From: Brunnivagina elsteri CCALA 953
GTDB lineage: Bacteria; Cyanobacteriota; Cyanobacteriia; Cyanobacteriales; Nostocaceae
Assembly (NCBI RefSeq): GCF_002289455.1
Contig: NZ_NTFS01000007.1
Span: forward strand, 1-41,178
Length of the DNA stretch: 41,178 nt
Reading direction: 5' to 3'
Shown here piece by piece: positions 7,010 to 40,750 of this stretch. The translations under genes were made by a program, and so were the position numbers. Each line of letters starts with the position of its first letter. Within the stretch, counting starts at the first letter, position 1. Below the pieces are notes generated by a model. That model was not told the DNA's origin. It ran no database searches and saw only the letters and a program-made list of their open reading frames with translations.

Positions 7010-7019
7010 AAATTCCTTT

Positions 7020-8003: not shown

Positions 8004-8018
8004 TTTAGTGTCCCTAAT

Positions 8019-22682: not shown

Positions 22683-24953
22683 TTAACCAGCTAAATATTC
22701 CCTTATTACCCGCAGCATTCCTGCACTACCTTTACTATTAACCAACAAAATAGGTGCAAGTTGAGATGAACGATGTGCTTCAATAAAACCTGTGGCTGCA
22801 TGTTTGGCACTAGCCGTCACCATCACAACAATATCAGAATTTCTCACCCACTGACGCAACCTGTCATTACCTCCCTTGTCATGGCTGAGGTGAACTGTAA
22901 CTTCTTGACAAGCTGTTTCCAGAATACCTTTGACTCTAATTGCTGCGGTTTCTGTGAGGGTATAAATTAGGATCGATTTGCCTTTGAGTTTGTGGAAAAT
23001 ATTTGCTTCAACCTGAATACTCGACTCGATTAAAGTTGCTTTTTCGCCAAGTAAATCTGGAAGCGACGCTGTTAATTGTAAATCTTTAACTAAATTGCGA
23101 AAGAGTTCCCATTGTGCTTCATCAATACGTTCTTGAAAACGACGCATAGTTTCAGCTACAGCAAATAGGAATTGTTGACGCTTTTCGGGGATGGGACTTG
23201 GATACCATACAAGTATATCAATTAAATCGATCGCCCAATCAACCTTTTTAGGTGAGAAAAATCGGCTCCAAAGTTCTAAGGCATGGTTGAGAATTTCAGT
23301 ATATGTGGCTGTATCTATATCAGTAGTCAAAAGCGCTTGAGCTAAATCATTGAATAAAACTAAATCGACATCGCTACCTTGTGTACTAATAACTAGCAGT
23401 TCTAGCAGCGAATAATAAAGGGTGAAAAATTCACTTCGGGGAAATTGCTCATCTTTTTGGAAAAATTGCAACAAGTATGGTAGAGATTCATGAAGAATCA
23501 ATTCAGATGTTGAAGCAACTTTATTTAATAAATCATTGAATTCGGTGATACTTCTGGCGTTTGCTTGTATCAGCAGACTATTAATATCCCACTCGGTAGC
23601 TCCCTGACGGGCTATCTGTATCGCTCTTTCCCAAGTTGGTTGTTTTTCTAACTCAGATAGCCATTCAAACCAATTTACTGGAATTGAGAAGGCTTGAATT
23701 CCTTGCAGTTGGGTAAGAAAATTTTGGTTCCACCGAACCTTTAAAAATACTCTTTGTTCTTCAACAGTCAACTCATCAAAGGCTTGTAATGCTGCTTTTT
23801 CAGCCGCCAAAATTTGCAATTCATACGCGCATTCGAGGAGCAAGCGAACTTTTTCTAAGGATGATGGAGCATTTCCCAGCAATAAAAACCCACGGTCGAA
23901 ATCTCCGCTTTTACATAATAGTTCGGCTTGTTGCAGTTCCCTAACATTCCCCAACTCCGGAGTCATGTCAGCCAAAAATGCGGCTAATTTTTCTAAGTAA
24001 ATGCGATCGCTTGACTCAATTTGTGGGATTGTCAGAAGTTCGTCACGTAAAGCTGGATTTGTTGGTTCTTCTGCTACCGCTAGCAACATAAATAATTTCA
24101 GCACTTCCGGGATTGTACTCCCAGCACGAGCAGTAAAAAGATTGCTGTATTGGGGAAAAACTACCTCTTGAAAATAAGCGATCGCACTTTCAGGGGCGTT
24201 ATTGTCTTCAAAATGCTGTAATTGGGTGCGATATACAGCCAATTGTAAAGCCTGGGTGACAGCAAAAGGACGGCGAACCTGCAATAGATTCGCAAATTCT
24301 TTTAGAGCAAGCAACTCGTTCCACTGCCCCAATTCCGCTAAAAGTTGTACCCGTAGAAACAGAAGATTCAATGTATCTAAACGATGCTGGTCTACGAGGT
24401 ATTGGAGAGAACTTTCGGCAGCAATGCGATCGCTTGCTTGTAATGCCATATAAAAGTCGCGCAATACCCTACCTGTAGGCTGGGGGATATCTGCAATCCG
24501 CTTAACTCGTCTTTCACCGACTCGCCGCATTTGTTCTAAAGCTTCCCAAATATCTGTAGCTTTTCCAGATATTTTAATGGTAGCACCCTCGGTAAATTCG
24601 TAAACTGCCAACTCCACGGGGTCTACCAGATTTAATTGCGCCCTTTCTCCGCGAAATGTCGAATATGTGCAACCAACAAACCCCATTAATTCCTCACTCA
24701 AGCGGCATAATTGGCGTTCTGAAGATGCATTCTGGTCTTGAGTCGGGATGGCGTACCAATCGACAATGCCACCGTGCCAGTAGGGTAAAACAGTTGATTG
24801 GGGTTCGACTTGGGTCAATAATTCTAGCCAAGGAAGGATTTTTGCATGTTTTGCTTCATCGCCTTCAATTTCCCTCAAGTTAAATTTATTACTTGCACCA
24901 AAAAATCGTTCTAGGAATTGGCGAACATGTGCGTTGTTGGGATTTTTCATCAT
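22683..24953 (-). CDS. dpdD: DpdD, protein of the Dpd restriction module
   Basis: This large, mostly helical protein (756 aa from ATG 24953) is the last gene of the eight-gene operon. The size and the place after dpdK fit DpdD of the 7-deazaguanine-linked restriction system. The first 180 residues form a distinct domain, the centre looks like helical repeats, and the last 100 residues form an alpha/beta domain (SILIYTLTETAAIRVKGIL, then VRNSDIVVMVTASAKHAATG, ending NSKGSAGMLRVIREYLAG) that resembles DUF2325. I chose ATG 24953 because GGAGGGGCGAG lies just before it and it overlaps the dpdK stop as ATGATGA. ATG 24968 has no ribosome site. The biochemical role of DpdD is unknown to me. Confidence 0.8.
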   Translation of the reverse strand: MMKNPNNAHVRQFLERFFGASNKFNLREIEGDEAKHAKILPWLELLTQVEPQSTVLPYWHGGIVDWYAIPTQDQNASSERQLCRLSEELMGFVGCTYSTFRGERAQLNLVDPVELAVYEFTEGATIKISGKATDIWEALEQMRRVGERRVKRIADIPQPTGRVLRDFYMALQASDRIAAESSLQYLVDQHRLDTLNLLFLRVQLLAELGQWNELLALKEFANLLQVRRPFAVTQALQLAVYRTQLQHFEDNNAPESAIAYFQEVVFPQYSNLFTARAGSTIPEVLKLFMLLAVAEEPTNPALRDELLTIPQIESSDRIYLEKLAAFLADMTPELGNVRELQQAELLCKSGDFDRGFLLLGNAPSSLEKVRLLLECAYELQILAAEKAALQAFDELTVEEQRVFLKVRWNQNFLTQLQGIQAFSIPVNWFEWLSELEKQPTWERAIQIARQGATEWDINSLLIQANARSITEFNDLLNKVASTSELILHESLPYLLQFFQKDEQFPRSEFFTLYYSLLELLVISTQGSDVDLVLFNDLAQALLTTDIDTATYTEILNHALELWSRFFSPKKVDWAIDLIDILVWYPSPIPEKRQQFLFAVAETMRRFQERIDEAQWELFRNLVKDLQLTASLPDLLGEKATLIESSIQVEANIFHKLKGKSILIYTLTETAAIRVKGILETACQEVTVHLSHDKGGNDRLRQWVRNSDIVVMVTASAKHAATGFIEAHRSSQLAPILLVNSKGSAGMLRVIREYLAG

Positions 24954-25462
24954 CTCGCCCCTCCCCATCGGTTAGTAAAAATCAACTTTTGTTCTGCGAT
25001 CGCTTCTGTAGATGTTTCATATGTTACTCCTTCTTCGTTGATTGTAATACCGTTATAAGTGAAGTTCATCGAACCCGCAAAATAATAACCGTCTCCGAGA
25101 ATGCCTTTGATATGAAGTTCTTCGGTAATGTGAATGTGGTAATTCATAGCATCATTTTTTACCTGAAGTGCTTCAATAAAACTGCGGTTGTGGGTATCGG
25201 GACGGGTGGCAATATGGATAGTGGTTCCCCTGGATGCTAGGGTGGTGAGGACTTGGGAAAGGCGAATACGGGAACGGCACCACAAGGGTTCTAAACATAA
25301 GAAAGTATTTGCGGTGTTATCGATAATAGATATATCGGATATCCAGGGGGAAATCAGCCACAAGCATTGACTGGGGTTGATGAGTTCGGAGATAAAAATT
25401 GTTTGCAACAAGTCGGGAACTTGGCGAGAACTTAGGCGAGAGTGGATATAGCGAGAGGGCAT
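24950..25462 (-). CDS. dpdK: DpdK, phospholipase-D-type nuclease
   Basis: This short 170-aa PLD-superfamily protein has a single HKD motif: His117-x-Lys119-x4-Asp124 in LHIKGILGD, followed by GSMNF (Gly130-Ser131-x-Asn133). One motif per chain means that two chains would have to pair to form the active site, as in the nuclease Nuc and in type II enzymes such as BfiI. The N-terminus has a typical PLD strand (LWLISPWISD). In this operon it is the most likely DNA-cutting subunit. Its stop overlaps the dpdD start by 4 bp. It starts 110 bp after dpdJ with no obvious ribosome site. Confidence 0.88.
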   Translation of the reverse strand: MPSRYIHSRLSSRQVPDLLQTIFISELINPSQCLWLISPWISDISIIDNTANTFLCLEPLWCRSRIRLSQVLTTLASRGTTIHIATRPDTHNRSFIEALQVKNDAMNYHIHITEELHIKGILGDGYYFAGSMNFTYNGITINEEGVTYETSTEAIAEQKLIFTNRWGGAR

Positions 25463-25482
25463 TTAGTTTGATTTACAGCAAT

Positions 25483-25514
25483 TTTTCAATTCCATTTATT
25501 TTCAATTCCATTTA
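25483..25514. repeat. 16-bp tandem duplication upstream of dpdK
   Basis: TTTTCAATTCCATTTA occurs twice in perfect tandem in the 110-bp gap between dpdJ and dpdK, starting about 20 bp upstream of the dpdK start (minus strand). It may be a simple duplication. A paired regulator site is possible but unsupported. Confidence 0.8.
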
Positions 25515-25572
25515 TAAATTTATTCTCACAGGCAAGCGCTTGGTCACTGAGCTTAGGGAAAATAAACTAAAG

Positions 25573-28500
25573 CTATTGCACTGCTTCCCTGACTCGCAAT
25601 CTCACCCCAAACCCATGCGAATGCCGTTGCACTCCTTCAACCAATGGATAAACCTGCAAAAATCCTAATTCCATCGGTTTGACAACTAAATCCAAAATTG
25701 CTGATTTCAAATCTTCCTTACGATCGCAATTAGCTATCAGCAAAACTGATGTACCTTGTGTAAATGCTTCCTCTACCTGTTTGCGCCAATCAGGTTGGTC
25801 TAAATATACTATGGTGTTGCTTGCCTGCAATAAACCAAGTAATGTTTCTCGATCGGCATCGACAAAGCTGGCAAAGGGGTTATAAATCGATAAAGCACGG
25901 GAACGAATTATATTTCCCCTTGCCCACAACAACCCATAAATTACTTGAAACCGCCAGTAGGGATTAGGTTGGACTAAACCCAGATGTAATAATGCTTTAT
26001 CTAGCTTATCCGAGTTGCTGGCTACATAGGCAAAAACCCGCGCATCAATTTCAATACCCAATCTTTCTTCTTGTTGGTGCCATAGACGAATCAAATCTAA
26101 TAATAGTTTATCGGTGTCTGGGGTACTTCCAGGACGCAAAATTCTTGTATTTATCGCCGTCATCACGGGATGGGTTACTAAAATTCCCTGGGAAGATAGG
26201 ACTTTTCGCAGTTGGGTAGAAGCCTGTTTTAATTCCCCATATCCTTGAGCTAATCGCACATCTGCCATCGCGTCAATGATATCTGCACTGGTTTCCGTTA
26301 ATTCCAGTAACCGCGTTAATTCCGAGTCCACAATCTCAAAATCTGAAGGTTCCAAAGCACTTTCAGCCAAGCGGAAAAAATTCGCCGGATCGGTTGCGTA
26401 GCGTCGCAAGATTTCCTCAATTACCCCACCTCCACCGATACTAGATTCGGTTATCCAAATTTCTTCGTACCCTTCTGGTATGCTAGGTACATCGGCTGGA
26501 CGGGGACCAGGTTCGATATCTAAAATTAGTTCTCCCAGGTCAAAATGGGGACACAACTGGCTGCAAGCTTCTAATAGTGCCCCTCCCACGGTAGCTTTGA
26601 AGCGTAAGGCTGTCCAACTGTGCCATTGTTCATCGGGTTCTGACCAAAGCACCTTTGCTAATTCGTTTAATCTAGTTTGAATGATATCTGCGTTGCAAAG
26701 TAGCCGTAATTTGTCATGTACCTTTTGCCTAACTACATTTTGTGATGATGCTTCTTCCCCTTCTTCCAATAGGGTTTCTTCAACATTCAAGGTTTGGAAG
26801 ATATTATCGAGAACTCTTGCCATTTCCTCGCCGATATTTTCACCCAAAAGCAGATTCAAGGCTTCTGACAATGATATATTATTTGCTAGGGCGCGGGCTG
26901 TAAGCATTGATAGATATATTTGATACAGCCACTCCCGTTGTAGAGAATTTGTTAATTCACATAATATTTCATCTGTCAATACCCGATGTTGAAAATAGGT
27001 AGTATCCCGTGACTTGACTTCAATGCTTGGGGGAAGTTGAAAGCGAAACACCAAACCATCAACAGATTGAGCAAATCCAACTGCGAAAGGGGTTCCATCC
27101 TGCTGGGTAAAGTGAATAGTAGTATCGAGTTCGTAACCTTTTTTGAAGCGGATATTGGCATGGGATGCGATCGCAAACCGTCGTGCTTCCACTGGTGACT
27201 GTTGGGTGTGGGTAAAGCAGCAAATTTCTGTAATAATTTTACACCAGGGGGAACCTTGGGGTAATTCGAGTTTAATACCAAAGTCGGGTGGAATTATTTG
27301 ACTGCACCATTCTAATTGGGCATTGGAACGAATGGAAACGCTGGCAGGTACTTGGGTAGGATTGATTGCCCAAGGACGAATGCAACGAATATCTGCAATT
27401 TTCCCATTTTGCCAATGTTGAAAAATTCCGGCTGATTCAAATTCAGTACAGTAGTCTTCTATTGGTAAATTTTGTTCTCTTTCTTGCCAATTGGGGGGAG
27501 CAATCCAGTGAGTTGCATGGATGTGTTGTATTCCAAATCTACGACTAGCTCTGCCCGGAGTAAAGGTTTCCAGGGCTTGAACAATGGGCATGAGGTTAAT
27601 ATCGGACTGGCTACTACGTAATTGGGGAGGAGTCGTAATTATTACTTCTGGTAATAGTAAGTCGCTAAATAAACTGGGGGGAACGAAATCGGGTAAGGGG
27701 TAGTTGGTTTGATAATCTTGGTTTGATTCGTTGGGATGTAAGGGGATGCGAGACCAATTTGACTTTAAACGTCGCAGCAAAGTGGGAAGTACCACCATCA
27801 TCAATGACCTTGGGGGTTCCCAGAAAATCGCTTCGACTTCATCTTTACTTAAATTCAAGGCTGATTGGAGATATACAGCTAATTCGAGTTGTCCTGGTTC
27901 GGTTTCGAGAATCTTTTCAATTAATTCTATTTCTAATTGCTGACGTGTTCTGTCGTATTCAGAAGCTCTGGCAAAATCATACCACACACTTCCCTTGATT
28001 GCTAACTGCTGTCCCACCCAATCCATAAAAGCGAAAACAGCCTGAATGCGGATAACATAGCGGTTTTGGATGGGGAGCGATCGCGATTGTAATACTGGGT
28101 TAAAAAGCAAATCATAACCTTGATAGGCAATGCGATCGCGTCCGTAGTCGGATAGTACCACCACTGTCCAAGGTCGCATAATTCGTCTTCGTCCCGCACG
28201 TCCTTTTCTTTGCAGAAATGAAGCCATATCCCGTGGTGACTTGTGCTGAATTACACCGCCAACCTCTGGGTCATTGAATCCGACTTCCAAGGATGCAGTA
28301 GCAACAGTTACATCCGTATTCGGGGTAACTCCGGTATCTTGGGAACTAGTACGACCGATACTCAAAGGTAATTCCAACCCATGACCAATTTCTTCACATA
28401 AAAGCCACGATTGCCCAGCTACCAAGCGATCGCTACTCTCGGATGCATTGTGCGATCGTAATGTTGCAAATGGCAGTCTTCCCCGCAAAGGACGACCCCA

Positions 28501-30060
28501 ACTGTCACATCCTTCGGCATCTAAAAGGTTATGAAATAAGCGATTGGTAACATCTAAATCGTCAGTAAAAGCAAAAACACGGGAACCATAAAACCCTTGA
28601 CTGGGAGGGTCTTGTGAGGGGTCAAGGACTCGTCTCAGCAGCATTGCAACTTGTATTGTTGTAGACAGTAAACTCGTTCCCGATACGGGGTCGCCCCTGA
28701 GAACTAATTGATATTCCGTACCTTCCGCAACTTGGTTCTCGCTGGGGGAAACTTCCTCAATAGAACCGGGATTTAAGCCTGTAAGTTGGCTAAAAAACTC
28801 TGCTGCATTTTCGAGAGTTGCCGAAAGTCCTGTAAATTGAACTTTTTTGGCAATTATTTTCTGCCAACGTCGCAACAAGTAAGCCACCTGTGCCCCGTGG
28901 ATACCTGTATAAGTATGTACCTCATCCAGTAAAACTAACTGAGGTTTTTTCGTAGCTCCAATCCCGAATATATGACCGTAATAAGAATCACCCATCGATC
29001 GATTTAGCATTTCCGTACTGGTAAAAACCAAATCAGGGGGAGATTTCATCATGCGATCGCGCGTGAGAATTATCTCCGAATCTAGGATAATAGTACCGCA
29101 TGATGGTTTTATACAAGTAAGTTTTTCTCTACCAGCTTCGATATCTGCGCGTTTCCAGGATAATATTCCCTCACATTCAGGACAACGTAAGTAAGGACAA
29201 GTAAACCCACCATCTTCAGGTTCCCATTTCTGTTGGATACTTTCGATGGTTGCACTTTTGGGAGTCAAGCCAAAAAATGCCCCGATCATAATTTGACGCT
29301 TTCCTTCAGCTTTCAAAACAGCATCAAGACGACGTGCTTCTTGATAGGTTTCAGAAAATTGGTCTTTGAGAAGTTCATTACGGGGATAAATTGCTAATCC
29401 CTTACTCCAATATTCATTGTTTTTTACCAAACCTGCAATATGTGCTAATGCTGGTAAATAAAATGCTAAAGTTTTTCCTGTACCAGTACCAGCACAAACA
29501 ATCATTCCGCGACTTTTGGTATTATTTAAATCCCGCAGCATTCGACTTGTCGCACGTAGCTGAAAATCGGCAAGTAGAACTTCACCACGGTTATGAGAGT
29601 TTAATATCGAGATAATTGCTTTTTTTTTCAGGGGAGTTAGTAGTTTATCCGCTTCTAGCGTTTCAATTACTATATTTAAAGTGATATCTCTTTTTGGATA
29701 AATTCTTGGACGAATTTGCAAGCGATAATCAGCCACCAAAGTGGGGGAAATTTGCCAGGTATTGTTATGAAAAAGTTGACGAAGACGGGCAAATAATCTG
29801 ACCGATTCTGCCATTCTGGTACGGAAAATACGAGTACATTTAATGTTAAATTCAAAGAGTAATTTTCGCTCAATTACTTCGTTGATAAAATCCCAAATAT
29901 CTATATCAGCATCGGAAATATTTAAAAAAACTTCGACAAATTCAATAATTTCATCTTCAGAAAATCCACCATCAACGATACCCCAAGTAAGAAGTTGAAC
30001 TTCTTGACGTTCTAAGATATCTAAAAAATCTCTAATTAATTCATTTAAGTTGAGAGTCAT
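25573..30060 (-). CDS. dpdJ: DpdJ, large DEAD/DEAH-box helicase
   Basis: This 1495-aa superfamily-2 helicase has Walker A AGTGTGKT (residues 190-197), a DEVH box (379-382) in LVLLDEVHTYTG, and the motif VI segment QRKGRAGRRR. Between motifs I and II sits a cysteine cluster (Cys288, 293, 296, 316, 321) that looks like a zinc finger. The C-terminal 700 residues are unrecognised, with a Lys/Arg-poor helical region and FEIVDSELTRLLELTETSADI. The size, type and place between dpdI and dpdK match DpdJ. I chose ATG 30060, since TTG 30081 would add only seven residues. It follows dpdI after about 150 bp, the longest gap in the operon together with the dpdJ-dpdK gap, so a secondary promoter is possible. 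Confidence 0.88.
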   Translation of the reverse strand: MTLNLNELIRDFLDILERQEVQLLTWGIVDGGFSEDEIIEFVEVFLNISDADIDIWDFINEVIERKLLFEFNIKCTRIFRTRMAESVRLFARLRQLFHNNTWQISPTLVADYRLQIRPRIYPKRDITLNIVIETLEADKLLTPLKKKAIISILNSHNRGEVLLADFQLRATSRMLRDLNNTKSRGMIVCAGTGTGKTLAFYLPALAHIAGLVKNNEYWSKGLAIYPRNELLKDQFSETYQEARRLDAVLKAEGKRQIMIGAFFGLTPKSATIESIQQKWEPEDGGFTCPYLRCPECEGILSWKRADIEAGREKLTCIKPSCGTIILDSEIILTRDRMMKSPPDLVFTSTEMLNRSMGDSYYGHIFGIGATKKPQLVLLDEVHTYTGIHGAQVAYLLRRWQKIIAKKVQFTGLSATLENAAEFFSQLTGLNPGSIEEVSPSENQVAEGTEYQLVLRGDPVSGTSLLSTTIQVAMLLRRVLDPSQDPPSQGFYGSRVFAFTDDLDVTNRLFHNLLDAEGCDSWGRPLRGRLPFATLRSHNASESSDRLVAGQSWLLCEEIGHGLELPLSIGRTSSQDTGVTPNTDVTVATASLEVGFNDPEVGGVIQHKSPRDMASFLQRKGRAGRRRIMRPWTVVVLSDYGRDRIAYQGYDLLFNPVLQSRSLPIQNRYVIRIQAVFAFMDWVGQQLAIKGSVWYDFARASEYDRTRQQLEIELIEKILETEPGQLELAVYLQSALNLSKDEVEAIFWEPPRSLMMVVLPTLLRRLKSNWSRIPLHPNESNQDYQTNYPLPDFVPPSLFSDLLLPEVIITTPPQLRSSQSDINLMPIVQALETFTPGRASRRFGIQHIHATHWIAPPNWQEREQNLPIEDYCTEFESAGIFQHWQNGKIADIRCIRPWAINPTQVPASVSIRSNAQLEWCSQIIPPDFGIKLELPQGSPWCKIITEICCFTHTQQSPVEARRFAIASHANIRFKKGYELDTTIHFTQQDGTPFAVGFAQSVDGLVFRFQLPPSIEVKSRDTTYFQHRVLTDEILCELTNSLQREWLYQIYLSMLTARALANNISLSEALNLLLGENIGEEMARVLDNIFQTLNVEETLLEEGEEASSQNVVRQKVHDKLRLLCNADIIQTRLNELAKVLWSEPDEQWHSWTALRFKATVGGALLEACSQLCPHFDLGELILDIEPGPRPADVPSIPEGYEEIWITESSIGGGGVIEEILRRYATDPANFFRLAESALEPSDFEIVDSELTRLLELTETSADIIDAMADVRLAQGYGELKQASTQLRKVLSSQGILVTHPVMTAINTRILRPGSTPDTDKLLLDLIRLWHQQEERLGIEIDARVFAYVASNSDKLDKALLHLGLVQPNPYWRFQVIYGLLWARGNIIRSRALSIYNPFASFVDADRETLLGLLQASNTIVYLDQPDWRKQVEEAFTQGTSVLLIANCDRKEDLKSAILDLVVKPMELGFLQVYPLVEGVQRHSHGFGVRLRVREAVQ

Positions 30061-30211
30061 ATTAATATTTTTAAAGAACAAATTATTTAAGAGAATAAAC
30101 CACAGAAGTTAAATAGAATTGCGACTAGGGAACACCAAGAAATAAATTATCCCTTATTTATGAGTGATAGGTAAATCTATAAATTGGGATATTTTATTTT
30201 CTGGAAATCCC

Positions 30212-30928: not shown

Positions 30929-33900
30929 GTTGTTGTATCTCCTTTAATTTCATTCATCATATTTCGTAAATTAGCCAATCCATCGTTAATTTCTTTACGG
31001 CTAGATTCTAGTGATATTTCACCTGATTGTTCTAACACTGCAATGCCATTCTTCACTTCCAAAAGCGAGAGACTTAGAAAACTATCAGCATCATTGAGAA
31101 AATCCTTAGAATCAGTAATTACTTTTTGATAATCTTCGCTTAAATATGCTAGTAACTTACCAGTATTATTTTCTGAATTTTCCTTCTCATCTTGGATGCG
31201 TTTCATTAAATCTTGATACTTGGTAATTGCAGTGCGTCGAAATTTATTTAACATATCTTTCATGCCATCAAAATCTTTTCTACCACGAAATATACCCTCA
31301 TCTCTGGCTGAACTCATTGCCATTTCTAGAGCATCAATAACTTTGTTTTTATTAATATCCTCTCCCAACTCAGATACTAAAGATTGATAAATATTAAATT
31401 GCCGTTCATACTCTTCTTGAATCGCTTTTTCTAACAATTCATCTACCTGTTGGCGTACTTTTTGTAATTCTGGAAACCCATCTCGAACATCTTCGGGAAT
31501 TTCACATTGAGGTTGCCAAGATTTACGCACTTTTTCTAAAGGTTCAATAATTTGAACTGCATCAATAATTTGAAACGGTGAAGTGCTACCTTTGGTACAA
31601 GCAATTCGACTTTTGACAATATCTAATAATGCTTCTCGATTTTTAGTTTTCTTAAAAGTATCAAATAACGTTTTCCAACTTGACGCACGAGTTGTATCAT
31701 CATTGCTATCTATATCTACAAACAACGAATTAATCAAATCTGTCAGCGTATTCGTTGGATGTCCTGCCATTGTGGCACTAATTGCCAGTAATTCCACCGC
31801 AGCAGGTACAGGATTCCAAGGTTCCCCAGATTCACGGGGATAAAGACGAATTTTTTCGACGACATGCTGACTCCAACATGACAAATACTTTGCATACATG
31901 CGAAAATAGCGATCGCCATTCGGAAATTTCCAGTGTTTATAGTGATTGTATTTTAAAATACCTTGAAAAACGTATGCTGTTTCCGTAAATTCATTCTTGT
32001 TATCTGGGTTAAGGGGAAGTGAGAAAACAACCCCTGAATAAGTCCCTCTTTTGACTTTAGGGTTATGGAAAATTAAATTTCGCTGTTGAAGTAATTTACC
32101 ACCACTACCGACAAAGCTACCCTTAAGAAGCATTTCAGTATCCCATTCGATTTTTTCCATAATTGCAGGAAAAAGTAACTCCCGAATATCTTTTGCGATC
32201 GCATCTGGTAAAATTGCCTCATTATTCCAACTGTCGAGGATTTCTAGCTTGCTTTTCAACGTTTCTGGAATCTCTTCGACTAAAGTATCAATTTTATCTT
32301 CTTGCGGAGATTCTACAAAAATTGTTGTCTTGGAATTAAGTTTAGATTGCGGTATAAGCTGCTTTATTTCCGTTGGTTTAGTTTTGACATCAAGAAGAGG
32401 TAAATTAAAGGCTGTATGAACCTCTGGAGATAAATTACAAAGCTCATTACTATTATCCCACAAGTCTAAAAATATCTCACGACGCTTGGAATTTTGCGAA
32501 TCTTTCTTCTGAATATCTAATTTAATTTCAGCACTCAATCGCATTTTCCCAAAGTGTTTTCCTAAGCTAACTGAGGGAAAATTCGCATTCTTAATATCAT
32601 CAACAGAATTTTCTAAAGTGTATTTCAGGACATCTCTAATCAAAATTCTGGGGTTAAATTCATCTGGATTAACTCTACTAAACATCTGCTGTAAAGCTTT
32701 GGAGTTGAAAGGATAAAGTCCCATTCCTTCAATATCTCCAAACCCTGCATGGCAAGCTTGAGAGTATTCGCAATCTTCACAAGCACTTGCTATCTTATCC
32801 CGATTTTGAGAACTTGCCCAATCAATAATTTCTGTTTCTTTTAAGCGAACAGCATTGAGATATCTGGCAACAAATATCTGAACATCATTTTGGGTAATTA
32901 AAGATTTGTCACCAATTTTGTCAATATTCAGATTGACACTAAAAGTAATACGCTGTTGAACTGTATCAACTAAATTTTTAAAATAGCCTGTGGTACAAGC
33001 TAATGCTGTCCGAATCGCACACAATGGCTTATTTTCACCTTGTTGAGGTCGTGCTAAAACAGCTTCTAATACTTCCCGATCAATACCTTGTAACTTAGCA
33101 AAATCTTCAATTAACAGTACCAATTCAATATTCTTTTCTGCCAAAGTTTCGCGGACTTCACGCATCAATTTTTGTAAATCTTCCCGACCCAAATTCAAAA
33201 CTTGGCTAATTGCATCATCTAAGTGAGAGTTTAACCAAGTTACAGTTTGTTGTTGGATATTCTCATCATTGATTAAGAAAGAATAAAAGTCCCTTGCTTT
33301 TTGTCCAGCTTTTTGAATATCTAAAATATTCAGTGGTAAATCTTCAGCAGAAAACTCACGACGCTCGTTGATATCTTCAATTTTATCTTTGTATCCAAGT
33401 GTATGAACTACTAAGCGATGAATAATTTTTTCATCTTGTAATAAATTTTCTCTAAAAAAATCATCATATAGCAAAGCTGGTAAATTTTTAATCAGATGTT
33501 CTTGAGTTTCTTCATCAGCAAGTTTAGCCTTTAAATGTTGTCCGTTTATCCCAATTTGAAAAGCTAAATTGTTTAATAGCTGTTCTCTTGCACCTTTATC
33601 TGTTAAAGTCCGAGTTGTTTGATTTAACCGTTTGCGATACTGATTTAATTTATCTTCTTCAAATCCTGCAATATTGAGAATTTTTTCCAGAATATCTTTT
33701 AAATTTGTGCCAATTCTGGGAATCAGTAGAACCTTACGTTTATCAGTTGATTCTATATTAGCCGACAACCAACGAATCAAATGGGATTTCCCTGTACCTG
33801 TCTCACCCAAAACAGGTACAAAGGCAAAATCTTTTTCAGCTAGAAAATCCTGAAGAAACTGCGCTTCGTTATATTCATTCTGTGATGATGCTTTAATTGA

Positions 33901-34029
33901 ATCCTGACGATACATGGAAATAGGATGATGTGTAGCCAAAAATAAATGATTGGAGGTTTGGGTTGCTTCCACATTCATCACTTGACGAATCATATCTAGG
34001 TTCCAGCAAACATAATTTTTAAAGGTCAT
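30922..34029 (-). CDS. dpdH: DpdH, P-loop ATPase
   Basis: This 1035-aa AAA-like ATPase has Walker A GETGTGKS (residues 75-82) in VPVLGETGTGKSHLIRWLS and Walker B LVLLIED (303-309). A small cysteine cluster CEDCEYSQAC (Cys417, 420, 426) may bind metal. The C-terminal part (from about residue 800) is long helices, probably coiled coil. The position after dpdG and the size fit DpdH of the Dpd restriction module. I chose ATG 34029: AAGGGG lies upstream and it overlaps the dpdG stop as ATGA. A TTG at 34047 is possible but less likely. It may act as the motor or switch that couples DNA recognition to cutting, but this is inference. Confidence 0.85.
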   Translation of the reverse strand: MTFKNYVCWNLDMIRQVMNVEATQTSNHLFLATHHPISMYRQDSIKASSQNEYNEAQFLQDFLAEKDFAFVPVLGETGTGKSHLIRWLSANIESTDKRKVLLIPRIGTNLKDILEKILNIAGFEEDKLNQYRKRLNQTTRTLTDKGAREQLLNNLAFQIGINGQHLKAKLADEETQEHLIKNLPALLYDDFFRENLLQDEKIIHRLVVHTLGYKDKIEDINERREFSAEDLPLNILDIQKAGQKARDFYSFLINDENIQQQTVTWLNSHLDDAISQVLNLGREDLQKLMREVRETLAEKNIELVLLIEDFAKLQGIDREVLEAVLARPQQGENKPLCAIRTALACTTGYFKNLVDTVQQRITFSVNLNIDKIGDKSLITQNDVQIFVARYLNAVRLKETEIIDWASSQNRDKIASACEDCEYSQACHAGFGDIEGMGLYPFNSKALQQMFSRVNPDEFNPRILIRDVLKYTLENSVDDIKNANFPSVSLGKHFGKMRLSAEIKLDIQKKDSQNSKRREIFLDLWDNSNELCNLSPEVHTAFNLPLLDVKTKPTEIKQLIPQSKLNSKTTIFVESPQEDKIDTLVEEIPETLKSKLEILDSWNNEAILPDAIAKDIRELLFPAIMEKIEWDTEMLLKGSFVGSGGKLLQQRNLIFHNPKVKRGTYSGVVFSLPLNPDNKNEFTETAYVFQGILKYNHYKHWKFPNGDRYFRMYAKYLSCWSQHVVEKIRLYPRESGEPWNPVPAAVELLAISATMAGHPTNTLTDLINSLFVDIDSNDDTTRASSWKTLFDTFKKTKNREALLDIVKSRIACTKGSTSPFQIIDAVQIIEPLEKVRKSWQPQCEIPEDVRDGFPELQKVRQQVDELLEKAIQEEYERQFNIYQSLVSELGEDINKNKVIDALEMAMSSARDEGIFRGRKDFDGMKDMLNKFRRTAITKYQDLMKRIQDEKENSENNTGKLLAYLSEDYQKVITDSKDFLNDADSFLSLSLLEVKNGIAVLEQSGEISLESSRKEINDGLANLRNMMNEIKGDTTTC

Positions 34030-34928
34030 GATTTGTCCCCTTTGCAAATAATGTGAGAAATTCGTCCATCGTCATCAACTTGATTATTTGCTTTTGGTAA
34101 AATCATTAAATCTGTATCAGATTGTCTTTTTAATTCAATATCACCCTCATCTTGAAGTCGAAATAAAGCAAAAGCTGTAGTTGTGGAAAGATAATTAGTT
34201 TGACGTTGACCAATTTGCGCTTCGATTTCTTCCCGAAATTTACCGGTTTCAAACAAAGGACATTGTGTTGTCAATCTATTAATAAAATCCTTTATCTTAA
34301 TTTCTTCTTCCCCATTAAATAAACACTGAAGATTACGTTTAATATAAGCTGTTGGGTCGGGAACTGTGACTGTTTTTCCTGCTAAAGTATGACCCCATGC
34401 AAAACCCATGTAACGCATCCAATCATCCATTTGACTAAAGAAGCGGTTACTCGTCATTTTTAAATCACCAACTTTTTGTTCGCTAATCAGCTTTTCCACT
34501 TCTTCCCAAGTTCCAGGAGCATCGTAGATATCTTGCGCTAAATACCAAGCACAAACCCGACCAAAATCTTCTTCATCTTCATTCTCAGATGTAAAAAACA
34601 AGTGATTGAAAGTATCGGGTAATAGCTTGTCACCAGTTTGAGGATTTATTGCGTCTTTTGGTAAATTTTGGTTAATTCTAACTTCTTCGTCTTCTTCGAT
34701 TAAAAGATTGCATTTTATGCTTTCTCTAATTGCGTCATTGAACATGGGATGGGAGCTTTTTTTATCTTTTGATTTTTCTTCGCTCGCTAAATGTTCCACT
34801 AATTTATCAGGAGACAATATTCTTTCTAATACGTCTCTCTTCTCACTTTGTCCTTGAACATGAAGTAAGTATCTAAATATTCCCCGCATTCTACTAGGAT
34901 TTGCTAAACCTGTTTTTAAAACACTCAT
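34026..34928 (-). CDS. dpdG: DpdG
   Basis: This 300-aa soluble protein has no motif I recognise. It reads as alternating helices (RMRGIFRYLLHVQGQSEKRD at the start), with a winged-helix-like look in the first 80 residues and again near the end (YLSTTTAFALFRLQDEGDIE), which would suit a DNA- or protein-binding adaptor. It overlaps dpdF by 4 bp (ATGA) and dpdH by 4 bp, so it is co-translated with both. GAGG precedes the start. The name rests on its place between a RecQ-like helicase and a large ATPase gene and on its length. Confidence 0.75.
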   Translation of the reverse strand: MSVLKTGLANPSRMRGIFRYLLHVQGQSEKRDVLERILSPDKLVEHLASEEKSKDKKSSHPMFNDAIRESIKCNLLIEEDEEVRINQNLPKDAINPQTGDKLLPDTFNHLFFTSENEDEEDFGRVCAWYLAQDIYDAPGTWEEVEKLISEQKVGDLKMTSNRFFSQMDDWMRYMGFAWGHTLAGKTVTVPDPTAYIKRNLQCLFNGEEEIKIKDFINRLTTQCPLFETGKFREEIEAQIGQRQTNYLSTTTAFALFRLQDEGDIELKRQSDTDLMILPKANNQVDDDGRISHIICKGDKS

Positions 34929-37447
34929 ATACTAACCTCAGTACAAAATATATCGAATTTAAAATATTTGCCGGGAAAAATATTAATTAATAGCCTGTCT
35001 TCTCTATCTGGATCGGGTGTATTTTTAGAAAGTAGGATAACTCGCATTATATCTGATGTATTCGATAAATAGTTTGGAGATAACGGGTTCCCCGGAGGAT
35101 GGAAAATTAAAGTAGGAATGCGTGGTATTAAGTAAGGTTCGTAGTTATCAAATAGAAAAGTAAATGAATTATTTATTTTAGAATTTTCTTTGATAAATTC
35201 TCTATATTCTGGAGAAATTATGATATTTCTCATACCCTGCTCAATTAACCACTTAAATATTTTTCTTCCTCTTTGAAATTTTTTTAATTCTTCCACAGAA
35301 TCATAGAAAATAAGCAATATTTTTTCACCTGCAATTAGCCTTTGTAATTCTCCACCGAGATAAAAATTTGGATTTTGCCATACTGCTCTTGATGCTGGCA
35401 TTATTCCGGCAAAAGCTGTAACTCCATTTTTTCGACAAACTGGACAACCTCCACAAGCTTTAGAAACTATTACCGAACTCCTATTTCCCATTGAACGTGC
35501 AGAAATGTTATAAGCTTCTGCAAATATTTCTGAAATACAACGTTTAGTTTTTAAAGCTTCTTTCATAAGTCGAAGATTTTTATCACTCCAATTTTGCCTT
35601 TGCTTGCGAACTGGTTCAATGTCATCTTCCCAAGTTAGTTTTTTATCGTGAGATTCATTGCGAATGCGAATAATGCGACAATTTCGGTACAAATCCCAGG
35701 CTTTTTGATAAACTTCATCAGATTCTGACTCAAAGTTTTTCTTCAACGGAGGTTCCTCCGAGTCTATTTCAATTAGATTTGCTCGGTTCATCAGCGTTAA
35801 AGTGCGGATATTCCAAGCTCTATTTTGTTCATTTTGCATATCAATATCTTTTTCAGATAAAGAGGGAGGATTATTAATAGGTATCCGATATCGTCCATCT
35901 TGTAAATTCTCTTTTTTTATAAACATACTTTGCCAGCGCTCCAATCCCCTCTCGACAGTAATTGCCGCATCTTTCTGTAAACCAAGAGCAATATTAAAGT
36001 CTTCGTCTGTATATAATGTCAGCGACATACATGCTTTACCATCTCTTCCTCCTCGTCCAACTTCTTGATAGAAACGATCGATGGTTTCGGGTATACAAAC
36101 GTGAATTACTGCCCTCACGTCAGCTTGATCTATACCCAATCCAAAAGCAGAAGTTGCAATCACTATATCAATCTTTTTCTCTTGCCATTTTTTAATTAGT
36201 TTTTCCCTCTGCCTAGTAGTTGATTTTCCTGTCATAGTGTCATGTCTTTTAAATCCAGCCCGGTTTAATTCTTTTTTCCAGTATTCTACATCTTCAACTT
36301 TTGTAGTATAGATAATTAATGGACGAGGCAGGTGAGATATGGCTTCTATTAACCTCTGTTTCCTAATTTCAGAACTTTGACACCATTTAAACCAATAAGC
36401 AGGTTCTGGACGCAACTGGACGGCGGATATGACTTTTAAATCCTGACCAAATAATGATTCTAAAGTATCTAAACAAGATTCTGTTAAGGTTGCTGTTAGT
36501 AATAATGTCGTGAAAGAATTAAGACGTAATAAATCTTTTCGCAAACCCGGAATTTCTTGAAACGCAGGACGAAAATCATCGCCCCATTGCTCAACCATAT
36601 GGGCTTCATCAATGATAAAATACTTCAACATGCCCGATTTTGAGGCTTCATAGAGCGAAGAAGCGAGAGAATTCATTAAACTTTCCGGAGAGGTAAAAAC
36701 AATTCTTTGGGTTCCGTTGCGAATGCGATCGCGTATTCCCTTGTTCTTCTCTTTTCCTTCAACCGAATCATCACTATAATAAGCTGTAGGATGCTCTATT
36801 AAAGGTTTTAATGCCCGTTCTTGGTCAATCGCTAATGCTGTAGTGGGGACAACTACCACACTCACCCCGTTATTGTTTCGAGAATTTAATAAAGCTGGTA
36901 ATTGAGCGCAAAGACTTTTTCCCGCACCTGTAGGTAAATTAATTACTAAAGTGCTATTTTCTGGTGCTGTTAATATGCCACGAATTGCATCTCGTTGTCC
37001 GATACTGAGGTAGGTTTCACGATTCACTAGTTGTAAAAAAAGGTCGCCAGTAACGGGTTCATAATTACGGCACTTTTTCTCATCAAATAGTGGTTTATCT
37101 GGGGGATATTCCTGAGAATCATCAAGCCATTGGGGTTGCCAAGCAGAAGCACTAATTAGATAATAATCTTTACGCTCGTTAAATGTTTGTATACTGGCTT
37201 GTTCCCAATTAATTTTCAGAAAAGGTGCTTTTCGAGGTATTTGCAGGTAACTTGGAGAACTTCGACCCTGCTTTTCATCTTCCCGTCGCAAAATATGCCG
37301 CACCAGACTAACAACATCTCCAGAACCCGGTGAGTTACGTAATGCATCTAATAAACGCTGGTGGCAAGGTTCCGAAATATAGCTAATATCTTCGGCGATG
37401 TTACCAGTTTTAAGAATTTCTCGCAGTGCTGAAAATGAGTCACTCAT
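34925..37447 (-). CDS. dpdF: DpdF, RecQ-like helicase
   Basis: This 840-aa superfamily-2 helicase has a RecQ-type core: TGAGKS (residues 173-178), DEAH (280-283) in IIDEAHMVEQWGDDFRPAF, and motif VI QEVGRGGRDG. An N-terminal extension of about 140 residues and a C-terminal region with a zinc-like CGGCPVCRKNG set it apart from the RecQ at 11785-13248. The last 150 residues contain an unidentified alpha/beta domain. It starts 3 bp after the dpdE stop with AGGAG well placed, and ends overlapping dpdG by 4 bp. It would unwind or translocate on DNA in the restriction complex. Confidence 0.88.
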   Translation of the reverse strand: MSDSFSALREILKTGNIAEDISYISEPCHQRLLDALRNSPGSGDVVSLVRHILRREDEKQGRSSPSYLQIPRKAPFLKINWEQASIQTFNERKDYYLISASAWQPQWLDDSQEYPPDKPLFDEKKCRNYEPVTGDLFLQLVNRETYLSIGQRDAIRGILTAPENSTLVINLPTGAGKSLCAQLPALLNSRNNNGVSVVVVPTTALAIDQERALKPLIEHPTAYYSDDSVEGKEKNKGIRDRIRNGTQRIVFTSPESLMNSLASSLYEASKSGMLKYFIIDEAHMVEQWGDDFRPAFQEIPGLRKDLLRLNSFTTLLLTATLTESCLDTLESLFGQDLKVISAVQLRPEPAYWFKWCQSSEIRKQRLIEAISHLPRPLIIYTTKVEDVEYWKKELNRAGFKRHDTMTGKSTTRQREKLIKKWQEKKIDIVIATSAFGLGIDQADVRAVIHVCIPETIDRFYQEVGRGGRDGKACMSLTLYTDEDFNIALGLQKDAAITVERGLERWQSMFIKKENLQDGRYRIPINNPPSLSEKDIDMQNEQNRAWNIRTLTLMNRANLIEIDSEEPPLKKNFESESDEVYQKAWDLYRNCRIIRIRNESHDKKLTWEDDIEPVRKQRQNWSDKNLRLMKEALKTKRCISEIFAEAYNISARSMGNRSSVIVSKACGGCPVCRKNGVTAFAGIMPASRAVWQNPNFYLGGELQRLIAGEKILLIFYDSVEELKKFQRGRKIFKWLIEQGMRNIIISPEYREFIKENSKINNSFTFLFDNYEPYLIPRIPTLIFHPPGNPLSPNYLSNTSDIMRVILLSKNTPDPDREDRLLINIFPGKYFKFDIFCTEVSI

Positions 37448-37450
37448 CGA

Positions 37451-40400
37451 TTATTCTCCTTCAACTGGAGGTAGATGTCGTCCAGAAATGATAATAAAAC
37501 CAACAGAATCGAGACGAATTAAAGGTTTGCGAATTCCTTCGATAATGACTTGGCTTAATTCTCTTTCATTATCAAGTTCTTGTTGGAGTTTCACATTAGA
37601 AACTTGTCCCTGTTCATTAAGCCGATTAAGACGCAAACGTAATTGTTCCAATCTCCTACCTAAATTTTGTTCGGCATAGGTGCTACTTTTATCACACAAC
37701 TTACTAAAATCTGGCTGTTGAACCAGCAAATCTAAAGATGTTTGCCGAGCGCGATCGCATATTTTCTGCCACTTACTAGACTCAATAAAATTATCAAGAA
37801 TATACAAACGATTTTTTGCTAAGTTGTAATCCCGTAATTTACTTCCTTTATATTGATAAGGACATTCTAGAATCTTTAAAATATTTTCATCTTCAACAAT
37901 AGTCATTGGTTCATATCTGGCATCAATGAATATACTTTTTACAAATGGAGCAAATAAGCCATCTACACGTCTTTGTAAAACTTTAGGATTGGCGATATTT
38001 TTTTGATAATTAACTATGTCTGTTTCCACAACATAATTAAATCTAAAACCATACCATTCCTCACCCTCACTCGAATCCCAATTTTCCTCAAATCGCCACA
38101 TTGCATATGTTTTACCCCTATCATCCCAATTTAGATAAGATGACAGTGATTCTACAAACTTTTCACCAATGCGGTAAAGTTTTAATCCTAGTTGCTGATT
38201 TGCTACGCTACGATTAAATGTACCAAACCCATCTAAGGTATTTGCAAAATTGTTTCTTAAATCATCGGCTGGAATTAATGTACGTTCGGTAGCTCGATAT
38301 CGCTTTGCCTTTGATATATTGGGGTCATTAATATCCTTAAATTGTAATGCATCGCAAACCCAATCTTCGGTGAATCGCTCCATATCTTGATGGCAAGCGT
38401 CATAATCATCTAATTTTTGGAAATATTCGCTAGAACTATCATCAAGAGCATCAATTTCATCAAGGGCATTTTGTTCGCTAATTTTGACCTGCTCTTGGCT
38501 AATTTCTTCCTTAACTACTTGAATATTTTCTAATAGTCCTTCTGCTCCTCTTCTAAATAAAACTTCTGCCAATATGGGCAATTTTTCATCAACATAAAAC
38601 TGAAGACTAGCAATTGATTGCTGAAAAATATTAAACCCTTCTTTAAAAACACTAAACCATGCATCGTGGAGGCTATCAGGTAAATCGACACCAGCAAATA
38701 CCGTAAATTCTACTTTCAATGAACGACCAATTCTATCTACTCTGCCAATTCTTTGTTCGAGACGATTTGGTGTCCAAGGTAGATCAAAATGAATTGTATA
38801 ATTAACAAATTGTAAATTAAGACCTTCTTCGCCGGAAAAATCACAAACTAAAATAAAGCAATTCGGGTCTTTTTTAAACCGATTTAAGTTTTCTTCACTT
38901 TGAGAACGAGTTTGCCCGCATTGATTAGCAGCAACAGCATCTTTACCAAAGCAATCTGTCAATACGCGGACAATTTCGGTACAAGATTGCACAAAACTAG
39001 TAAATACAACAATTTTTGGCAAACTGTCACCCGGTACAGGTCTTTTTAACCGTCTTTGTACCTCTGTCAATAATTTAGGTATGTTGGCTTTCAACGATTG
39101 CAGCTTCAACGGTTCGCAGAGATGGTGAAGTATAACTATTTTGAGTAATTCGAGCCTGTCCCCATCTTCCGAAGGTTGTTGGATGATTTGTAGTAAACTT
39201 TCTAAAATTTCTTCTTCGTTATTAAATTTTGGGGTTTGAGTCAGAATTTTGTCGGATTCTGCACCAAATTCCTGGATTAATGCCGCAGAGGATATACCCA
39301 AACGTACTTTAATTAACTGCTCTAAAATACCTAACCAAGTCCCAGCAGCACGAAATAACAATAGAAAAATCTGATGATATTCTTGTTTATCCGGTGCTGC
39401 ATTACGCCATCCCTCAAGTATTTCATGGATGTCATAACTTCGTTCATCCAAGTCATACTCAGCTTTTGGGGTAATTTTGCGGTCAAAAATAACATCTTCT
39501 ACAGATGCACGACGGTTGCGAAGCATTCGACGGTGAAGTCTGTAGGTATCGCTAATATGGGTACGAATCGCTCGCACAATCGTCACCGTATCGCCAACCT
39601 TAGCTGCGAGAATACTCTCTAAGCTATCTATCAACTCTAATAAATAACCATCTTCGGGAAACAGGTTACGAAGTCTTTTGAGACTATTTTTCAGAACAAA
39701 GGAATCTGCATTTTCCTTAAACGACAGCAGTATCCTACCAATATCCTGCCGTCTTGCTACCTTATCCCGAAAGCTTGCTAAATCATTAAGTTGGTAGGTA
39801 CTCGGATCGAGAAAATGCAGCATTGTCAGAAAATCTTCCTCATGGTTGAGAACTGGAGTTGCCGAAAGTAGTAGTAAGCGATCGCATTTATGTGTCAGAT
39901 TTCTGTAAGCCTCGAAAAGCTGGAGTTTTGCGGCATCTTTGGAGCTTCCCATTGCGGCAATATGGTGTGCTTCATCCAAAATTAGTAAGCCAATTTTTGC
40001 TTTTGGGTTAATTTTTTTGATATCCTCAACTGCAAGTATTCCAACCCGTTTGGGAAAATGGGAAATATAAAATTTATTTTCTAATTCAGTTTTCCACTGT
40101 GATAATAAATACTGCGGTACTATAACCACCGCATATCCAGAAGGTTCATCCAAAAGATATTGACGCAGGATTGCACCAGCTTCTATAGTTTTTCCTAAGC
40201 CAACTTCATCTGCTAATAAATAACGTTGAATTGGGTCTTCAAGTACCCGTCGGACAACTTCGACTTGATGAGGGAAAAGTTTAATGTTGGCAGATATTAA
40301 GCCCGTCATCCCGCGACTGACAGCACGTTGCGATACCAAGGACTTAATAAGAGCAAATCTGCGATCGTAAAAATAGGGCGTTTCTTGTCCCTTCATTGCC

Positions 40401-40750
40401 AAAGTTTCAATCGGTTCTGCTTGGAGTAAATTGCAACGAACGTAAATTTCTTTCTCGCTGACTAGAATGGTTTTCTTACTGGGTAAATCTATCCGATACT
40501 TACTAAATTCCGCATCCCACTCATAGATTCTACCTATAATCCAAGTTTCGCAACTTTCTTGGTAAATATAGCATCGAGTTTGACGCTCTAGTCTAAACTG
40601 AGACAAGCAGTCTAACGGTAAGCTTTTTTCTATACGTTGACCTACTGAGCAAAAATATTCAATAGTTACCTGAGTATCTGATATATCAATTACCTTTCCT
40701 ATACCCAAACTATTATCTTTAGAACGTACCAATGAACCGAGTAATATCAT
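37451..40750 (-). CDS. dpdE: DpdE, SNF2-family helicase/translocase
   Basis: This 1099-aa Swi2/Snf2-type ATPase is the first recognised gene of the Dpd operon. Walker A is DEVGLGKT (181-188), DEAH is at 259-262, and the C-terminal helicase half has EEGLNLQFVNYTIHFD followed by QRIGRVDRIGR (666-676). An N-terminal region with beta-rich repeats (residues 1-110) may be a small SH3-like or KOW-like module. Such enzymes move along double-stranded DNA, and in several restriction systems they scan for unmodified DNA. GTAGG lies 9-13 bp upstream of the ATG, and a short upstream frame ends at the start in an ATGA overlap. The C-terminus is an uncharacterised helical domain. Confidence 0.88.
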   Translation of the reverse strand: MILLGSLVRSKDNSLGIGKVIDISDTQVTIEYFCSVGQRIEKSLPLDCLSQFRLERQTRCYIYQESCETWIIGRIYEWDAEFSKYRIDLPSKKTILVSEKEIYVRCNLLQAEPIETLAMKGQETPYFYDRRFALIKSLVSQRAVSRGMTGLISANIKLFPHQVEVVRRVLEDPIQRYLLADEVGLGKTIEAGAILRQYLLDEPSGYAVVIVPQYLLSQWKTELENKFYISHFPKRVGILAVEDIKKINPKAKIGLLILDEAHHIAAMGSSKDAAKLQLFEAYRNLTHKCDRLLLLSATPVLNHEEDFLTMLHFLDPSTYQLNDLASFRDKVARRQDIGRILLSFKENADSFVLKNSLKRLRNLFPEDGYLLELIDSLESILAAKVGDTVTIVRAIRTHISDTYRLHRRMLRNRRASVEDVIFDRKITPKAEYDLDERSYDIHEILEGWRNAAPDKQEYHQIFLLLFRAAGTWLGILEQLIKVRLGISSAALIQEFGAESDKILTQTPKFNNEEEILESLLQIIQQPSEDGDRLELLKIVILHHLCEPLKLQSLKANIPKLLTEVQRRLKRPVPGDSLPKIVVFTSFVQSCTEIVRVLTDCFGKDAVAANQCGQTRSQSEENLNRFKKDPNCFILVCDFSGEEGLNLQFVNYTIHFDLPWTPNRLEQRIGRVDRIGRSLKVEFTVFAGVDLPDSLHDAWFSVFKEGFNIFQQSIASLQFYVDEKLPILAEVLFRRGAEGLLENIQVVKEEISQEQVKISEQNALDEIDALDDSSSEYFQKLDDYDACHQDMERFTEDWVCDALQFKDINDPNISKAKRYRATERTLIPADDLRNNFANTLDGFGTFNRSVANQQLGLKLYRIGEKFVESLSSYLNWDDRGKTYAMWRFEENWDSSEGEEWYGFRFNYVVETDIVNYQKNIANPKVLQRRVDGLFAPFVKSIFIDARYEPMTIVEDENILKILECPYQYKGSKLRDYNLAKNRLYILDNFIESSKWQKICDRARQTSLDLLVQQPDFSKLCDKSSTYAEQNLGRRLEQLRLRLNRLNEQGQVSNVKLQQELDNERELSQVIIEGIRKPLIRLDSVGFIIISGRHLPPVEGE

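Follow-up and report, generated by a model that had tools for sequence, protein, structure and literature searches.

An eight-gene dpd cluster in Brunnivagina elsteri

Can a bacterium keep the cutting half of a restriction-modification system when the half that marks its own DNA is not found in its genome? The question is raised by the cyanobacterium Brunnivagina elsteri CCALA 953 (genome G000), from which we analyzed the entire contig NZ_NTFS01000007.1 (41,178 nt; hereafter, the window). In the 7-deazapurine in DNA (Dpd) restriction-modification system a base mark protects the host: DpdA, which resembles tRNA-guanine transglycosylase (TGT), inserts preQ0 into DNA, DpdC converts preQ0 to 7-amido-7-deazaguanine (ADG), DpdB is a DGQHR/DndB-like protein, and folE, queD, queE and queC supply the preQ0. 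The window carries eight consecutive open reading frames (ORFs) on the minus strand, at 22683-40750, in the order dpdE-F-G-H-I-J-K-D. We conclude that this cluster is a genuine variant of a known defense system, one that recurs without dpdA.

Searches with profile hidden Markov models assigned the proteins to the Dpd families and reassigned none to another system. Seven of the eight genes exceeded their NCBIfam equivalog cut-offs by clear margins, dpdI alone falling below its own, and PADLOC gave the same assignments, again with a weak DpdI (E 0.0034). The initial annotation, which had recognized the eight genes by order and size, was thus right about the cluster; its last gene is dpdD as proposed, with 761 and not 756 residues. 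DpdI, usually the most divergent cluster member when loci are compared by identity, was predicted to be all-helical (predicted local distance difference test, pLDDT, 80), and DpdG possibly has a winged helix at each end, according to a low-confidence model (mean pLDDT 49).

The marking half was not found in the genome

The contig ends 428 bp upstream of dpdE, inside a dispersed repeat with 109 candidate places in the genome; all 40 places that were scored matched, the window included. As this contig end is where dpdA is expected from its relatives, the window alone cannot show that dpdABC is missing. We searched the whole assembly (7.0 Mb, 99.98% complete, 801 contigs), which held no match to the DpdA model NF041059 and one TGT-family match, a canonical TGT. 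DpdB gave no match in the genome either with NF041060 or with a cyanobacterial DpdB alignment (A3), which returned 645-795 bits in four dpdA-positive controls (G011, G189, G390 and G398). The 274-residue neighbor of DpdA, here called u274, was likewise not detected by its model in the 7.0 Mb genome. The DpdA of G011 carries a fused DpdC-like domain, and no such fusion was found in B. elsteri. By these searches the absence of dpdA is well supported.

With no DpdA, DpdB or u274 in the assembly, the earlier suggestion that the cutting half may be an orphan holds, and the suggestion that the modification genes lie just beyond 41178 or elsewhere is not supported. A dpdABC block immediately upstream, which would have made this an ordinary Dpd locus, is indeed the layout of relatives but was not found for this genome, the DNA past 41178 being unseen. 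Joining the window to a neighboring contig was rejected: a 61-bp, 89% match at the end of contig C488 was too divergent for an overlap, and the window end is repetitive.

Within the window there are 28 further ORFs of at least 100 residues. The Pfam scan covered 18 of them, and PADLOC was run on 10 of these 18; the 10 unscanned ones mostly overlap bigger ORFs. None of the 18 matched a TGT, DpdB, DpdC or Que family, which agrees with the initial annotation that the 41 kb hold no homolog of these. A radical-SAM ORF is HemW-like and not QueE, because it also matches HemN_C, and a ParB-like ORF that adjoins ParA gave no Dpd or Dnd match.

Clusters without dpdA recur

Among 217 genomes of the family, counting matches over NCBIfam cut-offs, DpdH was present in 20, all listed as at least 99% complete; DpdA passed its cut-off in seven of these and not in the other 13. 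A full-length DpdA accompanied an open DpdH in G403, G482 and G537; G507 had a full-length DpdA but four stops in DpdH, and in G278, G342 and G411 the DpdA match stopped at about position 300 of 406, dpdE being truncated too. All eight genes were open in five of the 13 DpdA-less genomes, from four genera (G000, G430, G437, G380 and G534), and G534 has its cluster on a contig of 9.5 Mb in an assembly of just two contigs, which makes an assembly gap unlikely there. Three others carried only E-F-G-H-I (G154, G181 and G128, the last split over two contigs), none of them with DpdJ over cut-off. Genome G201 is mixed: neither DpdA nor u274 was found in it, and a DpdB (647 bits) adjoins a further Dpd-like helicase of divergent sequence. 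Several clusters bear two labels below, equated by their contig coordinates and lengths (G430 is L067, G437 is L076, G438 is L139, G403 is L069, G537 is L081, G181 is L092 and G488 is L068), and G396 is the G437 record. The intact lone cluster L076 (also L170) belongs to Dulcicalothrix desertica PCC 7102, and the complete L069 to Amazonocrinis CENA67.

In another collection, none of 12 genomes of DpdA-less loci had DpdA over cut-off and both dpdA-positive controls did; these 12, one of which has a lone dpdE, partly overlap the family sample. A scan of 388 genomes found DpdJ over cut-off in nine (E 0.001 hits in 370 of the 388 were too loose and were not used), and the initial DpdA search in 18 genomes, these nine plus nine with weaker matches, was positive in 11, including four of the DpdJ set. 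TGT-like proteins of 57-81 bits (DpdA cut-off 200), mostly in frames of ~320-350 residues, occur in G396, G398, G538, G295, G444 and G372.

DpdJ was present on six plasmid records, together with DpdA on all but one. That one, p057_I from Nostoc sp. C057, carries all eight genes, and a search covering the plasmid record found no DpdA. A partial direct repeat (94 bp, 84%) stands on either side of its 23-kb cluster, and no inverted ends were found in the two stretches tested; the cluster is a possible mobile unit.

A genome survey of dpd was blind to lone clusters because its query required dpdA and dpdB (PMC11888242). Our literature search, which was incomplete, turned up no publication on dpdA-less dpd restriction clusters among the matches listed.

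Traces of a probable gene loss

The complete loci of cyanobacterial relatives have a DpdC-like/DpdA fusion and u274 just upstream of dpdE (divergently oriented in L081), with dpdB beyond dpdD in G482, G390 and G011, and next to dpdE in G189. The u274 protein, conserved in nine loci without a PADLOC or Pfam match, resembles, when judged by eye, a candidate second TGT-like subunit. Its model, run on 15 genomes, scored 538-551 bits in three dpdA-positive ones, found nothing in G000, G380, G353, G201, G396 and G401, and picked up short relics of 24 and 28 residues in G388 and G395.

The leader of dpdE in the window is homologous to the u274-dpdE interval of the complete, dpdA-positive L069, with identities of 79% over 218 bp (41007-40793) and 81% over 42 bp (40794-40753); no u274 codons were detected in it by blastn and tblastn against L069. 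Ahead of the same leader, p057_I and L068 keep the final 16 codons of u274, and their DNA similarity to the complete G482 begins at this remnant and ends ~24 bp short of the dpdD stop; since the two share extra flank beyond those points, theirs was probably one inherited loss. Approximately the last 24 u274 codons are retained before dpdE in L073, L074 and L078. Against G482, p057_I is 91% identical in DNA over the 5' part of dpdE and 98% over dpdK-dpdD.

A quick DpdE tree with SH-aLRT (approximate likelihood-ratio) support only, from which the fragmented L068 was omitted and in which p057_I and G534 do not figure, placed the window and the Cyanomargarita locus L067 as sisters, joined by the lone-dpdE L070 and adjoining complete or formerly complete loci, with the Calothrix orphans in a separate clade together with lone dpdE genes. 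The two sisters sit inside a three-member dpdA-less clade, which is most simply explained by a single loss that preceded their divergence. The u274 scars and the shared leader suggest that lone clusters probably arose by secondary loss, and we infer at least four separate losses of dpdA.

Constraint on the lone clusters

Ratios of nonsynonymous to synonymous substitution (dN/dS) between the window and Cyanomargarita were E 0.21, F 0.19, G 0.17, H 0.17, I 0.23, J 0.16, K 0.18 and D 0.19, with dS of 0.30-0.72 across the eight genes; these are simple pairwise estimates, which cannot date the constraint relative to the loss of dpdA. The complete pair G390-G482 gave E 0.22, F 0.27, G 0.26, H 0.19, I 0.48, J 0.11, K 0.10 and D 0.20. 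The orphan pair thus resembles the complete pair, in which dpdI is the outlier. Of the positions invariant in dpdA-positive systems, 87-96% are kept in the window, Cyanomargarita, p057_I, G380 and G396, compared with 71-96% in dpdA-positive rows when left out and 68-71% in two decayed orphans, there largely through truncation. Constraint on the intact lone clusters is supported, with the caveats discussed below. An unguarded cutting half had been expected to be toxic unless silent; the comparative data do not bear this premise out, since lone clusters are found repeatedly and those that are intact appear to be under constraint.

A variable module and a five-gene form

The four Calothrix orphans (G380, G396, G353 and G401) have dpdE 98% identical in every pair. 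Two of them, G353 and G401, carry the same allele, with 96-97% identity in G-H-I, and the five between-allele pairs fall to 80-81% in F, 60-70% in G, 62-65% in H and 50-59% in I, with 84-95% in J, 94-98% in K and 82-95% in D outside the module. In the DNA profile of G380 against G396, identity is ~95% as far as the 3' part of dpdF, lies at 59-76% beyond it and recovers at dpdJ. In the complete pair G390-G482 the module likewise diverges most, with 64% identity in G, 65% in H and 67% in I against 87% in E, 94% in J, 95% in K and 87% in D. The loci compared were L047/L048, L076/L170, L059/L060 and L139/L171, with L190 and L206/L207 as complete ones. From these identities the 3' part of dpdF with dpdG-H-I looks like an exchanged recognition or specificity cassette, in lone and complete clusters alike.

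Six loci carry a five-gene dpdE-F-G-H-I form with all frames open. DpdA was not found in them, nor DpdJ in the genomes of the five L-labeled loci, and the stretch of G154 that was read holds none of J, K and D. Four pairs of this form gave dN/dS of 0.20-0.35 for E-H and 0.23-0.47 for dpdI, which suggests that E-I may be a unit of its own.

What could the lone cluster be doing?

With a probability of roughly one half, we read the cluster as a Dpd-derived effector cluster that is kept and works without a 7-deazaguanine self-mark. We infer that its proteins are produced, act as a single machine and cut invaders with no self-mark needed. In the ancestor, u274 and a dpdA fused to a DpdC-like domain would have preceded dpdE, and dpdB would probably have followed dpdD; dpdA, u274 and dpdB would have been lost and dpdE-F-G-H-I-J-K-D retained as an anti-invader machine made of the helicases DpdE, DpdF and DpdJ, the ATPase DpdH, the variable G-H-I module and the nuclease DpdK. 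Foreign DNA would be told by a cue other than missing 7-deazaguanine, for example DNA structures specific to infection or replication, and the different cue would spare the unmarked host chromosome. We propose such a cue because the enzymes are intact, dN/dS is low, the module is exchanged and survival without the self-mark is repeated. A precedent for a YprA helicase is DruE of the two-component Druantia III, described as engaging replication intermediates that contain single-stranded DNA (PMC13192584), and a review relates that the eight associated genes cut transformation in a naive Bacteroides context, where modification genes had possibly moved along (PMC12707154). More tentatively, and short of an even chance, dpdE-F-G-H-I(-J-K-D) may be self-sufficient, with the mark optional and never needed to spare the host, a swap of F(3')-G-H-I switching the target, and 7-deazaguanine phages attacked in some lineages.

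Several points weigh against an effector that works unmarked. Complete Dpd systems are described as preventing the replication of unmodified DNA (PMC6884629). The apparent absence of DpdC rests on the missing DpdA fusion and on the ORF scans of the window. In the constraint test the 71% belongs to the divergent row G189, the other five dpdA-positive rows keep 90-96%, G380 and G396 (87%) lie below these, and G278 was counted as dpdA-positive although its dpdA is broken. The regions upstream of dpdE in the window and Cyanomargarita are unalignable, so that separate recent losses are possible, and the low dN/dS may then partly date from a dpdA-positive ancestor. Five of the 13 DpdA-less clusters (G201, G353, G438, G488 and G516) are damaged or cut by contig ends, and the loss of dpdA is thus often accompanied by decay. 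Finally, G396 has a TGT-like protein of 67 bits against the DpdA cut-off of 200 (the match in G393 reaches 22 bits), and in the five-gene genomes G392, G393, G395 and G399 some DndB-like proteins reach 39-58 bits with A3; these might act as substitutes in those genomes.

The damaged clusters would also fit a relict, in which dpdA-u274 and dpdB were lost first and the cutting half is inactive or silent, the intact clusters having been caught before visible decay. The joint truncation of dpdA and dpdE in G278, G342 and G411 points the same way, as does p057_I, whose loss looks recent because of its nearness to the complete G482. We consider a relict unlikely, given dN/dS of 0.16-0.23 in all eight genes of two orphans at this dS, like that of the complete pair, the five intact clusters across four genera and the retention of most constrained positions. 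Distinctly unlikely, in our judgment, is protection by another self-mark encoded elsewhere, for example through a different DNA methylase, phosphorothioation or some unrecognized base exchanger. For 57 of 272 solitary endonuclease genes a distant methylase has been predicted (PMC3488263), and the TGT-like protein of G396 has no assigned role. Yet G000 has only the canonical TGT and neither DpdA nor DpdB in a search that left methylases and Dnd genes outside, no neighbor is common to all 12 DpdA-less loci compared, and a DUF4365 gene pair that flanks some of them is not in the window.

Type IV restriction enzymes attack modified DNA, and the polarity of the system might be inverted in this way, with an unmarked host and a machine that attacks 7-deazaguanine-modified phage DNA. 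This would account both for dpdA having to go and for the survival of the host; 180 phages or archaeal viruses are reported to encode one or more enzymes of the 7-deazaguanine pathway (PMC6884629), and GrwAB acts on 7-deazaguanine phages, with escapers mapping to the phage dpdA (PMC12137116). The same eight genes, however, stand in complete loci with DpdA, a changed recognition would be needed, and no orphan-specific change was identified, none having been systematically sought; we take inverted polarity for a long shot. Highly improbable is an artefact in which the strain has dpdA-u274-dpdB but they fall between contigs or on a plasmid missing from the assembly, past the repeat at 41178. The 801 contigs and the contig end in a repeat at the expected place of dpdA speak for it. 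Against it stand the completeness of the assembly, the need for two gaps, since A/u274 and B lie at opposite cluster ends in G482, G390 and G011, and the lack of dpdA from contiguous DNA in Cyanomargarita (~15 kb upstream of dpdE), G534 (~9 kb) and p057_I. Checked against the long contigs of relatives and against the plasmid, an assembly gap was rejected as a general explanation.

Coordinates and neighboring genes

Table 1. Features of the window and of related loci. Positions without a prefix refer to the window; model scores are followed by the cut-off.
Feature	Position	Strand	Description and evidence
Dispersed-repeat end	41143-41178	none	Repeat of ~120-160 bp; the contig stops here
dpdE leader	40753-41007	-	Homologous to u274-dpdE interval of complete L069 (blastn, tblastn)
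dpdE	37451-40750	-	SNF2-type helicase, 1099 aa; NF041062 1088 bits (500); Walker A DEVGLGKT (residues 181-188) and DEAH (259) both intact (invariant columns, motif scan)
dpdF	34925-37447	-	RecQ-like helicase, 840 aa, DEAH intact; NF041063 979 bits (550)
dpdG	34026-34928	-	300 aa; NF041064 129 bits (80)
dpdH	30922-34047	-	P-loop ATPase, 1041 aa, Walker A GETGTGKS; NF041065 993 bits (450)
dpdI	30212-30928	-	238 aa; NF041066 38.8 bits, below cut-off (150); weak homology and position
dpdJ	25573-30081	-	YprA-family helicase, 1502 aa; NF041067 1983 bits (800); Walker A AGTGTGKT and DEVH intact (motif scan)
dpdK	24950-25462	-	Single-HKD phospholipase-D-like nuclease, 170 aa, HIKGILGD intact; NF041068 214 bits (100)
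dpdD	22683-24968	-	761 aa; NF041061 515 bits (300)
Radical-SAM ORF	17654-18853		HemW-like
ParB-like ORF	15371-16537		Adjoins ParA
Three neighboring ORFs	6227-9722	-	Two with weak, below-cut-off GTPase/dynamin-like matches
DpdC-like/DpdA fusion, G011	L057:5461-7575
u274, G011	L057:7731-8555		Follows the fusion
p057_I direct repeat	L193:8823-8916 / L193:32309-32402		Either side of the cluster
Five-gene dpdE-F-G-H-I	L072:9923-20607; L074:10001-20620; L078:923-11493; L092:9989-20526; L125:9989-20427; G154 (L194/L195)		All open
DUF4365 pair	L067:7195-8234; L068:11991-13024; G278 contig C7:162500-163533
p057_I DUF4365 gene	L193:25048-25437		After dpdJ
Cas6 gene	L067:8441-9556
Divergent DpdJ-like helicase system of G390, with DpdB next to it	G390 contig C17 173985-179999 (L190/L191)
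Lone dpdE loci			L070, L075, L077, L079, L080, L082-L091, L093-L124, L126-L132, L134-L138, L140-L146

The Pfam-matched neighbors in the window look ordinary (EEP-family phosphatase, glycosyltransferase, alcohol dehydrogenase, RecQ, DprA, ParA/ParB, HemW-like and PIN-TRAM); fainter matches were to proteins like DnaJ, GTPases, dynamin and SprT. The three ORFs at the left of the window possibly form a membrane-remodelling or defense-related unit.

The DUF4365 gene, with a 179-180-residue partner that has no Pfam match, lies beside the lone clusters L067 and L068 and the dpdA-positive G278, after dpdJ in L068 and G278 and upstream of dpdE in L067; the pair is possibly accessory cargo of the J-K gap. 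Other neighbors shared beyond close-relative pairs were weak matches of 32-34% between large ORFs. A Cas6 gene lies directly upstream of the Cyanomargarita lone cluster, divergent to it. Another DpdJ-like helicase, divergent and sharing ~26% identity with DpdJ, occurs alongside separate K- and D-like genes in L064, L065, L066 and L190/L191, in the last of which (G390) DpdB adjoins it; this appears to be a Dpd-like system other than the one analyzed here.

We found 148 relatives and kept 80 DpdE loci, with flanks of at most 10 kb on each side, shorter on small contigs. In 66 of the 80 no other dpd gene was present in the fetched DNA, several of them having short flanks, and DpdE was rejected as a marker of Dpd; in these cyanobacteria it seems to be widespread as a gene on its own.

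Comparison with known systems

A cutting half that has lost the marking half time and again while staying intact at low dN/dS does not fit a simple model in which the mark protects the host. Strains without dpdA are natural material for asking what the eight proteins recognize, and the mutual need of the two halves becomes testable.

The closest system is Dpd itself: all eight genes of its restriction operon stand here in the order E-F-G-H-I-J-K-D, seven over the equivalog cut-offs, whereas DpdA, DpdB and u274, which flank the same eight genes in the complete relatives G482 and G390, were not found. Druantia, DISARM and ARMADA share with it a YprA-family helicase, DpdJ belonging to the same family as DruE and DrmAB (PMC12458937); the seven clearly assigned proteins, however, match Dpd models above any Druantia or DISARM model, and no DruH, DrmB or PglX-like methylase is among the eight. 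BRIGADE systems, which are Dpd/ARMADA-like hybrids, have a Dpd-like YprA helicase and a phospholipase-D-like nuclease but keep a predicted 7-deazaguanine gene cluster, a part not found here, where DpdA gave no match, and they are reported only in halophilic archaea (PMC12458937). Like solitary restriction endonucleases, the cluster is a restriction part without its cognate modification gene; those are single genes (PMC3488263), whereas here a cluster of eight genes is found in several genera with low dN/dS.

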